Part shown: positions 5 through 47,976 of the stretch, piece by piece
Layout: the number at the start of each line of letters is the position of its first letter
Numbering within the stretch: position 1 is the stretch's first letter
Origin: an uncultured Lachnospiraceae bacterium
Lineage (GTDB): Bacteria; Bacillota; Clostridia; Lachnospirales; Lachnospiraceae
Assembly (NCBI GenBank): GCA_905235745.1
Contig: CAJOMN010000005.1
Span: 1-64,000 of the forward strand
Length of the DNA: 64,000 nucleotides
Direction of reading: 5' to 3'
Position numbers and translations under genes: made by a program
The notes under the pieces: generated by a model
What the model saw: only the letters and a program-made list of their open reading frames with translations
Told to the model about the DNA's origin: nothing
Databases searched by the model: none

Positions 5-98
5 ATATGTTGCGAGGTGTCTGCGAAGCAGACGGAGTCCTCGCTACACCGCGAGCCTCCATTCGGCGAAGCCGAATTCAAATGGCGAGCGTCCTTGT
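5..98 (+). repeat. Structured repeat element, copy A (two-hairpin type)
   Basis: Two hairpin domains. Domain 1 has outer stem GCGAGG (12-17) with CCTCGC (39-44) enclosing GTCTGC-GAA-GCAGAC (19-33). Domain 2 begins CACCGCGAG, has CGC (50-52) with GCG (89-91), opposed GA/GA dinucleotides, GCC/GGC, then ATTCGGC-GAA-GCCGAAT (61-77), and ends CCTTGT (93-98). The same architecture with different bases in the stems recurs at 42266-42464, and domain 1 recurs on the minus strand at 6636-6675. No protein is plausible here. It lies upstream of the tRNA cluster. Function unknown. Confidence 0.6.
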
Positions 99-20038: not shown

Positions 20039-20862
20039 GTTTGAGAGCAGTGCTATTTCATAGGGGACTCAAACTATATTCCCGACAAGGCAATAGTTGA
20101 CCTGTTTGAGAGCAGTGCTATTTCATAGGGGACTCAAACCGAATAATCGCTCGGCGAGCGCTCCCACCGTTTGAGAGCAGTGCTATTTCATAGGGGACTC
20201 AAACGACAGGGGCATGGCAATAGTTAAGCTCGCAGTTTGAGAGCAGTGCTATTTCATAGGGGACTCAAACTATAAAATTAAAAAAAAACAAAGTAACTAG
20301 TTTGAGAGCAGTGCTATTTCATAGGGGACTCAAACGTATTTATCAAACGTCGGGCGATCTAACTGGTTTGAGAGCAGTGCTATTTCATAGGGGACTCAAA
20401 CTTTAAAGCATCACCGGATAAACCACAACCGTTTGAGAGCAGTGCTATTTCATAGGGGACTCAAACATCTGGCTCCGACGAAAGGATTTTACATCGAGTT
20501 TGAGAGCAGTGCTATTTCATAGGGGACTCAAACGCAGAAATGCCAGTATTTGCTACCATACAAGTTTGAGAGCAGTGCTATTTCATAGGGGACTCAAACG
20601 ATTGCGTACTGATTAGAGCTACTGGCTCTGTTTGAGAGCAGTGCTATTTCATAGGGGACTCAAACGGGAGCAAGGGCGAGTATGTTTTACATTGGGTTTG
20701 AGAGCAGTGCTATTTCATAGGGGACTCAAACTTCTCGAAGAATGTGGTTGACAACACCCTGTTTGAGAGCAGTGCTATTTCATAGGGGACTCAAACTTGT
20801 GTTGCTATCCCCTTCATTACTCTCCTGTTTGAGAGCAGTGCTATTTCATAGGGGACTCAAAC
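20039..20862 (+). CRISPR. CRISPR array, 13 repeats and 12 spacers
   Basis: The 36-bp repeat begins GTTTGAGAGCAGTGC and ends ATAGGGGACTCAAAC. All 13 copies look identical, including the last. Spacers are 29-31 bp. Repeats start at 20039, 20104, 20169, 20235, 20300, 20366, 20431, 20498, 20564, 20630, 20696, 20761 and 20827. GTTTGAG/CTCAAAC at the repeat ends are inverse complements. The repeat matches the anti-repeat beside cas9. Spacer 4 (20271-20299) is A-rich and of low complexity. Spacers 1 and 3 share GGCAATAGTT. The absence of decayed repeats at the distal end suggests a young or recently trimmed array. Confidence 0.98.
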
Positions 20863-41362: not shown

Positions 41363-41389
41363 GTTTTGCAGGCATAATTGGAGTGGATC

Positions 41390-42271
41390 ATGAGTGGAGA
41401 GAAGAAAAGATCCGTAAGTGCCGGACACGGCGGGTTTGTTTCATATTTAGGCATCGTATTGATGCTACTGTCATTCGTCCTTGCAGTGGTGATCACCAGT
41501 TCAACGGGAAGCGATTATTTTTCCGAAAACATAATCATGACTCTGGCGCTCGCAGTGTCTGTGATCATTACCGTTGCGGGAAATCTTGTTGTCGCTGTCA
41601 TAGTTGCCGCCGTTGCAACTGTCGTATTTGCGGGATTGAAGATATATTCGCTCATATCGCTTCAGAGCGATTTTCCGCCGGTATCTTTCTTGTGGATACT
41701 GCTTCCCGCAATGTGCGTTACGGGAATTGCTCTGTATATTAAGCGGTATACACCGCTTGTGCTTGAAAACGCTCTTCTCAGGAAGCAGATTTCCGAGCTT
41801 GTAATGATCGATCCGGTTACGGGCCTCTATAATCTCAGAAGCATGTTCATGGATATTCAGACACAGGTCTCTTATGCGGAGAGAAACGGCAGCCCTATAT
41901 CGCTTATGATATTAAGACTGCGTTATCCCGCTGAAATGAAAAAGGTTCTGAAACCTGACCAGTATGAAAAGGTAGTCAAACAGTTATCACTTCTTATAGT
42001 TGATACGGTCCGCCTGGAAGACCGTGTATATTCGCTCGATGAAAACGGCGGGTTCGGGATCATTCTCACCTGTGACAGAAACGGCACCAAGATCGTTGAG
42101 AAGAGACTGAGAGACAAGCTTAAAGATTATTCATGGTTTGAAGGAATATCCGACAAGCAGATACGCACAGAGGTTAAGATCGGTTATCTGCAATATGACA
42201 AAGACAAATATAAACGCAACGCAAACAGCTTCAAAGAAGATGTAGAAGATGAAGTAGAGTATGATATGTAG
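41390..42271 (+). CDS. Membrane protein with degenerate GGDEF domain
   Basis: The protein has 293 aa from the ATG at 41390 (GGAG upstream; a TTG at 41378 is the alternative). Three to four membrane segments fill the first 120 residues. A diguanylate-cyclase-like domain follows: IDPVTGLYNLRSMF is the normal N-terminal signature, but the catalytic GGDEF loop reads DENGGFGIIL (217-226), so the metal-binding acidic pair is lost. The C-terminal strand region KIGYLQYD is kept. Probably a non-catalytic sensor. The stop TAG lies inside the structured repeat that follows. Confidence 0.72.
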   Translation: MSGEKKRSVSAGHGGFVSYLGIVLMLLSFVLAVVITSSTGSDYFSENIIMTLALAVSVIITVAGNLVVAVIVAAVATVVFAGLKIYSLISLQSDFPPVSFLWILLPAMCVTGIALYIKRYTPLVLENALLRKQISELVMIDPVTGLYNLRSMFMDIQTQVSYAERNGSPISLMILRLRYPAEMKKVLKPDQYEKVVKQLSLLIVDTVRLEDRVYSLDENGGFGIILTCDRNGTKIVEKRLRDKLKDYSWFEGISDKQIRTEVKIGYLQYDKDKYKRNANSFKEDVEDEVEYDM

Positions 42272-42362
42272 ACAGGAGGGGCCCGCCGAAGGTGGGAAGA
42301 GCCTGTCTGCACCGCGAGGCCCATTCGACGAAGTCGAAATAAAAATGGCCGAGCGACCTTGT
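42266..42362 (+). repeat. Structured repeat element, copy B1
   Basis: A 97-nt unit. Domain 1: GACAGG (42271-42276) pairs with CCTGTC around CCCGCC-GAA-GGTGGG. Domain 2: CACCGCGAG, GGCC/GGCC with opposed GA/GA, TTCGAC-GAA-GTCGAA, ending CGACCTTGT. It begins on the ATG-TAG end of the preceding gene. It is identical to copy B2 102 bp on and similar in plan, with compensating stem changes, to copy A at 5-98. Confidence 0.7.
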
Positions 42363-42367
42363 TAATA

Positions 42368-42464
42368 ATGTAGACAGGAGGGGCCCGCCGAAGGTGGGAA
42401 GAGCCTGTCTGCACCGCGAGGCCCATTCGACGAAGTCGAAATAAAAATGGCCGAGCGACCTTGT
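42368..42464 (+). repeat. Structured repeat element, copy B2
   Basis: Base-for-base identical to 42266-42362, with a 5-nt gap TAATA between the two. Its end is followed by ATGCATAGACAGGAGG, the start of a third copy, which here serves as the ribosome binding site of the epimerase gene. Confidence 0.7.
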
Positions 42465-42485
42465 ATGCATAGACAGGAGGGACAT
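42465..42485 (+). promoter_or_regulatory. Repeat-derived ribosome binding site of the epimerase gene
   Basis: TAGACAGGAGGGACAT (42470-42485) carries the Shine-Dalgarno sequence of the TTG-started epimerase. The same 16 bases precede the transaldolase gene (46437-46452), and TAGACAGGAGG opens each repeat copy. CCTGTCT inside copy B2 could pair with AGACAGG here and hide the site. Confidence 0.5.
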
Positions 42486-43445
42486 TTGAAATATTTTATT
42501 ACAGGCGGAGCCGGCTTTATCGGCTCGAACATGGCCGACAGGCTTTTGTCGGAACCCGGAAACGAAGTAGTTGTTTACGACAATTTCAGCACCGGAAGGC
42601 ATGAATTCCTAGAGGAAGCAGGCAGGAACGACAGATTCACCCTGATAGAAGGCGATACCCTCGACCTTGAAGCGCTGACAGCAGCAATGAAGGGGTGTGA
42701 TTTTGTATTTCATTTTGCTGCCAATGCGGACGTCAGAATGGGATGCGAGCATCCGCGGAAGGATCTCGAGCAGAATACGATAGCTACCTATAACGTTCTT
42801 GAAGCAATGCGTGCAAACGGGATCAATAGAATAGGATTTTCCTCGACGGGTTCCGTGTACGGAGAGGCCGAGGTGATCCCGACTCCCGAGAACGCGCCGT
42901 TCCCTGTTCAGACGTCCCTTTACGGAGCGTCGAAGCTTGCCTGCGAAGGATTGCTTGCCGCCTATGCCGAAGGTTTCGGTTTTACGGTGTATATATTCAG
43001 ATTTGTTTCGATCCTCGGAGAGCGCTATACGCACGGACATGTGTTTGATTTTTGCAAGAAGCTTTCGGATGATCCGACGAAGCTTCATATACTCGGAGAC
43101 GGACATCAGAAAAAATCATACCTGTATGTCGGAGACTGTATGGAAGCGATACTCACGGTGATCAGGAACGCAAAAGAGAAGGTCAACATATATAATCTCG
43201 GAACGGATGAATATGTCGAGGTTAACGATTCGGTAGGTTTTATATGCAATAAGCTGGGAGTTTCGCCCACGTTCTCATATGAAGGCGGCGAGAGGGGATG
43301 GATCGGCGACAATCCGTTCATATATCTTGACACTTCCAAGGTAAGATCCCTCGGATGGAAACCGAAAGCGACCATCGAAGAAGGTGTTATCAAGACAGTC
43401 GAGTATCTGCAGGTGAACCCGTGGGTGTTTGCGGCAAGGGATTAA
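42486..43445 (+). CDS. NAD-dependent sugar epimerase/dehydratase (GalE-like)
   Basis: The protein has 320 aa from a TTG at 42486 with AGGAGG 5 nt upstream; a farther upstream in-frame ATG would run through the repeat. Extended short-chain dehydrogenase: KYFITGGAGFIGSN binds NAD, FSSTGSVYG and YGASKLA (Tyr and Lys) are catalytic. It heads the heptose cluster, so its substrate is probably an activated heptose or hexose used in the same surface glycan. It could be a 4-epimerase or a heptose epimerase; the sequence alone does not say. Confidence 0.85.
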   Translation: MKYFITGGAGFIGSNMADRLLSEPGNEVVVYDNFSTGRHEFLEEAGRNDRFTLIEGDTLDLEALTAAMKGCDFVFHFAANADVRMGCEHPRKDLEQNTIATYNVLEAMRANGINRIGFSSTGSVYGEAEVIPTPENAPFPVQTSLYGASKLACEGLLAAYAEGFGFTVYIFRFVSILGERYTHGHVFDFCKKLSDDPTKLHILGDGHQKKSYLYVGDCMEAILTVIRNAKEKVNIYNLGTDEYVEVNDSVGFICNKLGVSPTFSYEGGERGWIGDNPFIYLDTSKVRSLGWKPKATIEEGVIKTVEYLQVNPWVFAARD

Positions 43446-43467
43446 TAAGGCACCGGGAGATTAGGAA

Positions 43468-44442
43468 ATGATCATTGCAAGAAGTCCATTAAGAATAACA
43501 CTCGGAGGCGGCGGGACCGATCTTCCGTCATATTATGAGGAAAGAGAGGGGTTCCTGATCTCTGCCGCTATTGACAAATACGTCTATATCACTCTTCACG
43601 AAACATTTGAGAAGGGTTATTTTCTCAAGTATTCCAAGTTTGAAAAATGCGACAGCATAGATGATATCCAGCATCCGATAATCCGCGAAGCATTAAGGAT
43701 GCTTGACTGGAAGAGGCCGTGTCTTGAAGTATGTTCCATGGCGGATATCCCTGCGGGAACCGGGCTCGGATCATCAAGCTCCTTTACAACGGCGCTTCTT
43801 CGTGCCCTGCACACGATGCAGGGAAATATCGTATCCACACGTACTCTTGCGGAGGAAGCCTGTGAGATTGAGATGAACCGGCTCAAAGAGCCTATCGGCA
43901 AGCAGGATCAGTATATCGCCAGCTACGGCGGCATCACCTGTATGAACTTTCATAAGGACGGATACGTCTGGGTCGACCCGTTAAGGATCTCGGATGAGAC
44001 GCTGTATAATCTTGAAGACAACCTGATACTGTATTTTACGGGATTTTCGCGTTCCGCGGGTAATATATTGAAGGAACAGAATGACAAGAGCAAAGAGCAC
44101 AACGAGGATATGCTGAAGAATCTTGACTTCGTAAAGAACCTCGGATATCAGAGCAAAGAGGCCTTGGAAAAGGGCGATCTTGATACATTTGCCGATATTA
44201 TGAACACTCACTGGGAATACAAGAAAAAACGTTCCGGCGGAATGAGCAATCCGAAGATCGATGAATGGTATGATATGGCGCTGGCAAACGGAGCACAGGG
44301 CGGTAAGATGATCGGCGCCGGCGGCGGCGGATTCCTGATGTTCTATGTCAAGGACAAGGCAAGGCTGCGCGATGCCATGAGGAATACCGGAATGAGTGAG
44401 GTCAGATTCAGATTCGAAAAGGAAGGATCCAGAGTCTTATGA
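43468..44442 (+). CDS. hddA: D-glycero-alpha-D-manno-heptose 7-phosphate kinase (HddA-like GHMP kinase)
   Basis: The protein has 324 aa. GHMP kinase motifs: IARSPLRITLGGGGTDLPSY, the ATP loop DIPAGTGLGSSSSF and the C-terminal GGKMIGAGGGGFLMFY. The RSPLRITLGGGGTDLPSYY opening is that of HddA/FucK-type kinases. With gmhA, the GmhB-like domain and the nucleotidyltransferase next to it, a heptose 7-phosphate substrate (giving the 1,7-bisphosphate) is likely. It overlaps the next start by 4 bp. Confidence 0.85.
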   Translation: MIIARSPLRITLGGGGTDLPSYYEEREGFLISAAIDKYVYITLHETFEKGYFLKYSKFEKCDSIDDIQHPIIREALRMLDWKRPCLEVCSMADIPAGTGLGSSSSFTTALLRALHTMQGNIVSTRTLAEEACEIEMNRLKEPIGKQDQYIASYGGITCMNFHKDGYVWVDPLRISDETLYNLEDNLILYFTGFSRSAGNILKEQNDKSKEHNEDMLKNLDFVKNLGYQSKEALEKGDLDTFADIMNTHWEYKKKRSGGMSNPKIDEWYDMALANGAQGGKMIGAGGGGFLMFYVKDKARLRDAMRNTGMSEVRFRFEKEGSRVL

Positions 44443-45881: not shown

Positions 45882-46439
45882 ATGACAAAAGAGTACATTG
45901 ATCAGTACCTTGACGAGACCGTTCGGATAGCGCAGACGGTGTCAAAGGAAGAGATCGGAAAGGGTATTGAGATTCTTCGCGAGACGAAGAAGAACGGGGG
46001 AAGGCTGTTTATCCTCGGAGTCGGCGGAAGTGCGGCAAATGCCTCACATGCGGTCAATGATTTCAGAAAGATCGGGGGAATAGAGACATATGCTCCTACC
46101 GACAATGTTTCTGAACTGACGGCAAGAACCAATGACGAAGGCTGGGAAACAACATTTACGGAATGGCTGAAATGCAGCCATTTGAACGGGAAGGATTCCG
46201 TAATGGTGTTCTCGGTCGGAGGCGGAAGCATGACAACTTCTCTTAACATTGTAAATGCGCTCAAGCTTGCAAAGGAGCGCGGCTCGAAGATCATTTCCAT
46301 TGTCTCGAGGGACGGTGGTTATTCAAGGCAGGTCAGCGATGCGTGTGTTCTGATCCCGGTTGTTGATGATGCAAGGATTACTCCGCATGCCGAAGGATGG
46401 CAGGGAGTAATATGGCATTTAATGGTAAACGCAATGTAG
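45882..46439 (+). CDS. gmhA: Phosphoheptose isomerase (SIS domain)
   Basis: The protein has 185 aa, one SIS domain. LFILGVGGSAANASHAVNDF and VFSVGGGSMTTSLNIVNALK bind the sugar phosphate, and ARITPHAEGWQ matches the metal and catalytic end of GmhA. It converts sedoheptulose 7-phosphate to D-glycero-D-manno-heptose 7-phosphate. The gene directly downstream encodes a transaldolase that can supply sedoheptulose 7-phosphate. It ends ATG-TAG within the TAGACAGGAGGGACAT motif. Confidence 0.9.
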   Translation: MTKEYIDQYLDETVRIAQTVSKEEIGKGIEILRETKKNGGRLFILGVGGSAANASHAVNDFRKIGGIETYAPTDNVSELTARTNDEGWETTFTEWLKCSHLNGKDSVMVFSVGGGSMTTSLNIVNALKLAKERGSKIISIVSRDGGYSRQVSDACVLIPVVDDARITPHAEGWQGVIWHLMVNAM

Positions 46440-46456
46440 ACAGGAGGGACATACGA

Positions 46457-47361: not shown

Positions 47362-47976
47362 ATGTCAGAAGTAAAGAAACCCTCTGTAACAGTTAAGAAG
47401 ACTGTTGTTACAGAACCTGAGAAGGCTAAAGAAGCTATCAAGGCAGCAGTAGCAGAACAGAAGGCAGCAGCACCCGCTAAGGCAGCAGCACCCGCTAAGG
47501 CAGCAACACCCGCAAAGACAGCAGCACCTGCTAAGAAGGCACCCGCCAAGAAGGCACCTGCCAAGAAGGCACCTGCCAAGAAGGCAGCAGCACCCGCCAA
47601 GAAGGCAGCACCCGCTAAGAAGGCAGCACCCGCTAAGAAGGCAGCACCTGCCAAGAAGGCAGCACCCGCTAAGAAGGCAGCACCTGCCAAGAAGGCAGCA
47701 CCTGCTAAGAAGGCACCCGCCAAGAAGGCAGCTGCAAAGAAGACAGTTGTTAAGACAAATGCTGTATTTGCGATCAGTGATACTAAGAATATATCAGCAG
47801 ATGCACTTCTCAAGCAGTATCTCAAGACAGCAAAGGATCGTGCTAAATATGATCTCGGTATCAAGGTTTCCGATATCAAGAGCATTGATATCTATCTGAA
47901 CATTGCTGAACAGAAGGTTTACAGCGTTATCAACGGAGAAGTTAACGATTCATTTGATATGTATTTCGATTTCTGA
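47362..47976 (+). CDS. Ala/Lys/Pro-repeat histone-H1-like protein with conserved C-terminal domain
   Basis: The protein has 204 aa. Residues about 35-130 are tandem PAKKAA/PAKKAP repeats, strongly basic and disordered, like eukaryotic H1 tails or bacterial nucleoid H1-like proteins. The C-terminal 70 residues (AVFAISDTKNISADALLKQY to NDSFDMYFDF) form a small acidic domain which I associate with DUF6465 of Lachnospiraceae. DNA compaction is an inference. It has a strong promoter, AAAGGAG and a strong terminator, which suggests high expression. The GCAGCACC(C/T)GC(C/T)AAGAAG DNA repeats are prone to copy-number change. Confidence 0.75.
   Translation: MSEVKKPSVTVKKTVVTEPEKAKEAIKAAVAEQKAAAPAKAAAPAKAATPAKTAAPAKKAPAKKAPAKKAPAKKAAAPAKKAAPAKKAAPAKKAAPAKKAAPAKKAAPAKKAAPAKKAPAKKAAAKKTVVKTNAVFAISDTKNISADALLKQYLKTAKDRAKYDLGIKVSDIKSIDIYLNIAEQKVYSVINGEVNDSFDMYFDF

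Follow-up and report, generated by a model that had tools for sequence, protein, structure and literature searches.

Within the window, the 64,000-nucleotide stretch of Lachnospiraceae DNA analysed here, a gene of 297 aa counted from its longest start (41378..42271, + strand) is followed by a sugar-nucleotide epimerase-like gene of 319 aa (42486..43445, + strand), named from the earlier note and by inspection, for which 34 of 37 genomes of the genus contain matches at E ≤ 1e-60. Between them lie two 97-nt units on the + strand (unit 1, 42266..42362; unit 2, 42368..42464), which a repeat comparison of the window showed to be 100% identical at a spacing of 102 bp, as the earlier note had described, and which were both recovered by the covariance model introduced below with 95.9 bits. 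The 5′ end of unit 1, referred to as R (42266..42280, + strand), holds AGGAGGG as well as the TAG (42269-42271) on which the 297-aa reading frame terminates; the noted start of the unit on ATG-TAG was thus verified, and a start on a stop codon proved common in the family. Behind unit 2 a partial third start, R′ (42467..42481, + strand), has 11 of 14 letters in common with unit 2's own start and represents the Shine-Dalgarno sequence of the TTG at 42486. The sequence TAGACAGGAGGG is present three times, at 42269, 42371 and 42470, the third copy preceding the TTG at 42486, in agreement with the proposal that this partial start serves the epimerase as ribosome binding site.

Folding of unit 1 yielded two hairpin domains, the first formed by TGTAGACAGG and CCTGTCTGCA with an inner CCCGCC-GAA-GGTGGG, and the second by CGC/GCG, GGCC/GGCC and TTCGAC-GAA-GTCGAA. 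By inspection, the window units terminate in CCTTGT, behind which the next unit or a Shine-Dalgarno sequence begins rather than the T run expected after the hairpin of an intrinsic terminator. No inverted pairs of at least 12 nt were found in 41500-43500, so that the terminal inverted repeats of a MITE are absent at the locus. An Rfam scan of the whole window brought only five tRNAs to gathering level. In line with the earlier note, which knew no named family with this layout, the unit belongs to no Rfam family, the only Rfam neighbour being a sub-threshold match to GA-cis (RF02987) with 14.9 bits at the locus, 19.5 bits at the best place elsewhere in the same genome and a cut-off of 34.7.

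A further copy of the unit is located at the start of the window (7..98, + strand, 76.6 bits), with a tRNA cluster downstream of it. Contig C16 opens with the same 92 nt (G000 C16:7-98), and the assembly probably broke in the repeat, leaving identical copies at two contig starts. In addition, the R-like 15-mer ATGTAGACAGGAGGG occurs without a unit at 46434..46448 (+ strand; DNA search E 0.77, 15/15 letters), upstream of a reading frame resembling a transaldolase; the DNA search detected solo R-identical 15- to 17-mers of this kind, lacking the rest of the unit, also at G000 C6:14375-14389 and C14:80262-80278. Apart from the units, the window contains a CRISPR-like array of a 36-nt repeat (GTTTGAGAGCAGTGCTATTTCATAGGGGACTCAAAC) with spacers of ~30 nt (20039-20862), and a 204-aa reading frame (47362-47976) with lysine/alanine/proline-rich AAPAKK tandem repeats and a histone H1-like composition.

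Searching the genome from which the window derives on the DNA level revealed diverged copies of the unit, the best one outside the window locus with 83% identity (E 2.5e-23). Twelve of the own-genome copies were aligned and used to build a covariance model, which at E ≤ 1 matched 35 places in this genome. For 26 of the matches E was below 1e-10; these include two identical copies located at contig ends. This search, suggested by the earlier note, demonstrated that the unit is not unique to the site. Scanning 41 genomes at E ≤ 0.01 yielded matches in 15, all within the genus, and none in the 16 genomes outside it. At E ≤ 1e-5, 13 of 37 genus genomes hold 15-38 copies and the remaining 24 hold 0-3. 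The 13 unit-rich genomes are exactly those with an epimerase at least 90% identical to ours; among the 24 unit-poor genomes, an epimerase match is absent from three and partial in one. Tandem pairs with equal scores are also present in G043 and G045. An exact 20-mer core of the unit was found in 16 stretches from named genomes, 15 of them Lachnospiraceae MAGs and one a Deltaproteobacteria MAG (L098), which was treated as a chance match since the model did not detect it at E ≤ 0.001. Spread by phages was rejected, as viral_contigs contained no exact match to a 17-mer core.

The predicted fold of a single unit (102 nt folded) reached −44.1 kcal/mol compared to −28.1 ± 3.3 for shuffled sequences (z = −4.8, 0 of 200 as low). 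In the alignment of the 12 own-genome copies, for which the ends were chosen by hand and MAFFT was used, two-sided changes occurred at 17 of 26 pairs versus 5.3 in shuffles and 1-4 in slid structures. The larger alignment consisted of all 82 model matches, corresponding to 70 distinct rows, some of them partial or seen twice; it was fitted to the covariance model and is therefore biased towards it, whereas the 12-copy alignment was not. Here, two-sided changes were present at 24 of 26 pairs versus 14.2 in shuffles and 5-11 in slid structures, 98.3% of the cells were paired versus 79.2% in shuffles, and the covariation score was 0.408 versus 0.107 in shuffles and 0.05 or less in slides. These data strongly support the two-hairpin fold, and with it the two domains per unit seen in the earlier note, though part of the covariation in P1 could stem from palindrome-correcting mutation. 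G-U cells outnumbered A-C cells (64 versus 6), with 54 of the 64 G-U cells coming from two P1 columns, an excess that modestly favours folding of this strand as RNA. The 3′ ends of the units are not sharp, with a consensus of about GCGWCCTT.

The genomic placement was analysed for 63 copies, which remained after 11 already-listed repeats and 8 partial or degenerate matches had been removed from the 82 model matches; they comprise all clear own copies and the best-scoring ones of the relatives and are not a random sample. For the docking count identical copies were counted once (62), and for the R′ count one more copy with a short flank was dropped (62). A codirectional reading frame of at least 120 aa ends between −150 and +25 nt from the 5′ end of the unit for 33 copies; its stop lies at −6 to +14 in 25 of these, at −89 or beyond in 8, and never between −88 and −7. 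On the 5′ side, 11 copies have a tRNA within 300 nt, ten of them at a distance of −1 to 3 nt and the eleventh, the second copy of a tandem, 143 nt away. Five of the ten docked copies are in sense orientation at the 3′ end of the tRNA (three representing one tRNA-Thr site in three genomes), and five are antisense at the 5′ end. On the 3′ side, a tRNA follows five copies within 300 nt, the gaps being 10, 27, 72, 72 and 80 nt.

An Rfam scan of 16 loci chosen by eye gave eight matches. Units directly abut the 3′ end of RNase P RNA (L080), the 3′ end of SRP RNA (L090), a cobalamin riboswitch, overlapping the end of the model by 15 nt (L069), and, in antisense, an FMN riboswitch (L094), while one unit lies 13 nt behind an S10 leader (L041). 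In L083 (G001) and L071 (G005) the unit is inserted inside RNase P RNA; according to the alignment, it occupies a hairpin loop in L083 and leaves the remaining RNA intact (306.9 bits). In L105, the RNA is unrelated and far from its unit. Taken together, the placement follows a rule: the 5′ end of a unit lies at a stop codon or at the border of a tRNA, an RNase P or SRP RNA, or a riboswitch. The tie to a heptose cluster suggested earlier turned out to be incidental: other copies adjoin rplB, which one unit of the same genome (L049) directly precedes, as well as thrS, rlmL and a ketopantoate reductase gene (all named by inspection).

Comparison with sister species, akin to the strain comparison proposed in the earlier note, revealed filled as well as empty orthologous junctions. 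At the epimerase junction, where the start of the gene was recognised at 15 of 30 loci (two outside the clade), three of the 13 clade genomes contain full units as judged by eye, namely ours with two units, G020 and G045. Hairpin-1-only repeats or fragments are present in G041, G005 and G007, and seven clade genomes carry no unit, with R-type stop/Shine-Dalgarno sequences in G043, G010, G022 and G001. For the other junctions, which were picked because ours is filled and for which full units were judged by eye, a full unit was found at rplB in 3 of 11 genomes, at thrS in 4 of 11 plus one deletion derivative (G043), at the gene after L039 in 2 of 13, at rlmL in 2 of 11, and at the panE-like (ketopantoate-reductase-like) gene in 1 of 7 plus two remnants. 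The gene after L043 was excluded from the tally because most of its homologs have another upstream gene; judged by eye, full units are present there in G000 and G043 and a 3′ remnant in G010. At the gene after L039, the sequence of the empty sister sites is GGCTGATAGGAGG in G043 and AACTGACAGGAGG in G041, and ours has GCTGATAGGAGG on either side of the unit. Such states are compatible with an R-body unit being gained or lost between direct repeats. The units are thus present or absent at orthologous sites, a pattern that gain and loss would both produce, and empty sites can be excisions, because several of them already carry an R-like stop/Shine-Dalgarno sequence.

Hairpin-1-only repeats upstream of the epimerase were observed in L141 (G005, four in tandem), L140 (G041) and L163 (G014). 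Their stems pair differing local stop/Shine-Dalgarno sequences (GTAATAAGG, GTCATAAGG).

The first 14 letters of the unit recur with at least 12 matches 1-5 nt behind its 3′ end in 15 of 62 copies, and the remaining 47 copies have no close R′. For these 15 cases, none of 200 shuffled flanks equalled the match, and the R of the copy itself gave a better fit than the R of other copies did on average, although some of these fitted equally well. The length of R′ varies from a short Shine-Dalgarno sequence to stretches extending into hairpin 1 (L079, L080, L095, L099). The earlier note had considered a mobile non-coding element that duplicates its target. The mobile behaviour of the structured repeat is in line with our results, and at the window locus the direct repeat indeed supplies the ribosome binding site; as to the duplication, R/R′ pairs occur at 15 of 62 copies, a single R-like copy is present at the empty sister sites of two loci, and R′ may be a truncated tandem unit. 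Integration by a single crossover at AGGAGG was rejected, as it fails to explain that R and R′ also match to the left of AGGAGG. As a separate observation, the R′ AGGAGG is predicted to pair mostly with the tail of the unit (about GCGWCCTT) at L035 (0.64), L036 (0.83) and L040 (0.80), and little or not at all with it at most other sites.

We consider it likely that the units represent a clade-specific, non-autonomous mobile repeat that is maintained in folded single-stranded form, most likely as RNA. A unit is built as R-body, with a 5′ R (about ATGYWGAYAGGAGGG), the rest of hairpin 1, and hairpin 2 ending in about GCGWCCTT. R forms the first strand of hairpin 1 and in many cases holds the stop codon of the upstream gene together with AGGAGG. 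New units would land immediately 3′ of functional sequence, such as stop codons or the borders of tRNAs and other RNAs, presumably mobilised in trans by an enzyme working on the folded strand, the RNA being the form under selection. In about a quarter of the examined copies a partial second copy trails the unit, resulting in R-body-R′. At operon junctions, such an R′ can be taken over by the next gene as its ribosome binding site, and this renewed supply of AGGAGG as Shine-Dalgarno sequence might make insertions tolerable. Finally, recombination or slippage between R and R′ could add units, as in the R-body-R-body-R′ arrangement of the window, or delete them.

A possible role, one that is compatible with mobility, is that of an intercistronic module recruited by the host, in which the hairpins, whatever they derive from, would act on the RNA level in insulation or in the processing or stability of mRNA. 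In favour of such a module are the docking of units at stop codons and behind tRNA, RNase P and SRP RNA genes, the covariation of the fold and the transcription and decay data on bcr repeats given in the passages on the Bacillus cereus group (PMC3446304). The antisense position of five of the ten tRNA-docked copies at tRNA 5′ ends and the erratic presence among sister species, however, argue against it, and overall we regard it as a tentative alternative. It is doubtful that the unit is a REP-type palindrome mobilised by a REP-associated Y1 transposase. The family does consist of hairpins in tens of copies, and matches to Y1 transposases were obtained in 14 of 25 genomes searched, including two in ours. 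Nevertheless, no unit was detected around the ten Y1 genes examined, that is, the two own genes and eight others, five of the ten belonging to unit-rich genomes (two own, G001, G010, G015); moreover, G005 and G007 are unit-rich but without a Y1 match, and inspection of the copies did not reveal a fixed tetranucleotide tag.

A more specific extension of the mobile-repeat model, which we think unlikely, would assign the 3′ strand of P1 (CCUGUCUGCA and local variants) the role of a target guide. During mobilisation it would pair with a stop-codon/Shine-Dalgarno sequence in place of its own R, upon which the element would insert flush at the gene end and gain its R flanks; GA-cis and the family of 97-nt units would then represent separate lineages of a single kind of mobile element that is guided by nucleic acid and seeks out gene ends.

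The earlier note had also proposed a translational switch, in which CCTGTCT within a unit would have two alternative partners, the AGACAGG of the same unit and that of the next, including the real ribosome binding site, and would thereby regulate the downstream gene. The complementarity is present in the window, and the site is predicted to be less open with the units (0.14-0.78 unpaired per base) than without them (0.68-0.90). Blocking the upstream R, however, left the accessibility in the predicted ensemble unchanged (0.14-0.78 versus 0.15-0.80). Across 17 R′ sites (at least 11 of 14 letters), the predicted access rose, fell or stayed the same upon blocking of R, with no consistent folding response, and the site's pairing with the unit body amounted to 0.07 or less at 13 of them and 0.33-0.49 at four. 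In addition, a close R′ is absent from most copies, as described above, and copies adjoin tRNAs, RNase P and SRP RNA, some of them in antisense. A switch is thus very improbable; because the family is spread and sits at gene ends, the unit appears to be a mobile non-coding element rather than a dedicated switch. A ligand-sensing riboswitch or leader of one pathway, as might be concluded from the conserved fold and the frequent position upstream of genes, can practically be dismissed in view of the varied neighbours, the tRNA and antisense contexts and the insertion in RNase P RNA, and was rejected since there is no conserved class of downstream genes.

The family of 97-nt units, which we favour as a mobile repeat, adds a structured repeat for which, as for its relation to GA-cis and its docking rule, the open-licence literature searched on intergenic repeats and GA-cis yielded no earlier description. 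Its precise arrival at gene ends poses a testable question, and the copies beside rplB and inside RNase P RNA represent natural experiments. Group-restricted structured intergenic repeats are a known kind of element, an example being bcr1-bcr18 of the Bacillus cereus group, which are described as group-restricted intergenic repeats, some MITE-like, some with conserved RNA structure and many transcribed (PMC3446304). The share of bcr copies lying within an mRNA is reported as 50.9% in one and 40.0% in the other of two Bacillus cereus strains, and among bcr1-bcr3 only bcr3 correlated with decay rate, according to the passages on these repeats (PMC3446304). By description, bcr1-bcr18 resemble our family in being group-restricted repeat families; docking at stop codons and duplication of the Shine-Dalgarno sequence are features of our family that do not appear in the bcr passages (PMC3446304). 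REP/BIME palindromes, described as extragenic hairpin repeats in many copies (PMC2817692, PMC3733652), share the hairpins and the high copy number with our family, and probably the extragenic position. In contrast to them, our family has a two-domain unit of 97 nt, head-to-tail tandems and no adjacent Y1 transposase among the genes examined.

The closest counterpart is GA-cis, and the Rfam neighbour itself was shown to have the habits of a spreading repeat. Its model exceeded the cut-off in 14 of 41 genomes, all within the genus, with sub-cut-off matches in two genomes outside the genus and in three control genomes. At E ≤ 1e-5, 23 of the 37 genus genomes contain GA-cis, the maximum being 19 copies; the genomes of the 13-genome clade have only 0-3, and there was no match in the genome of the window or in 14 control genomes. 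Among 20 GA-cis copies, several of which come from one site in different genomes, a codirectional stop is located at −5 to +4 in nine and at +17 to +29 in six, and is lacking in five; five of the 20 are followed by at least 10 of their own first 12 letters, a count given without a shuffle control. GA-cis differs from our unit in sequence and stem layout, and it is common outside our clade. Reportedly, GA-cis goes back to a 2017 paper. On the other hand, both have two hairpins, AGGAGG near the 5′ end and tandem runs, the first hairpin of GA-cis carries a CGAAG loop as in our unit, and the two share the genus and the placement at junctions, the latter being a habit rather than a criterion for one family. 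In G015, a GA-cis copy is directly followed by a unit of the 97-nt family. GA-cis and the 97-nt family look like variants of a single kind of element, each specific to its lineage.
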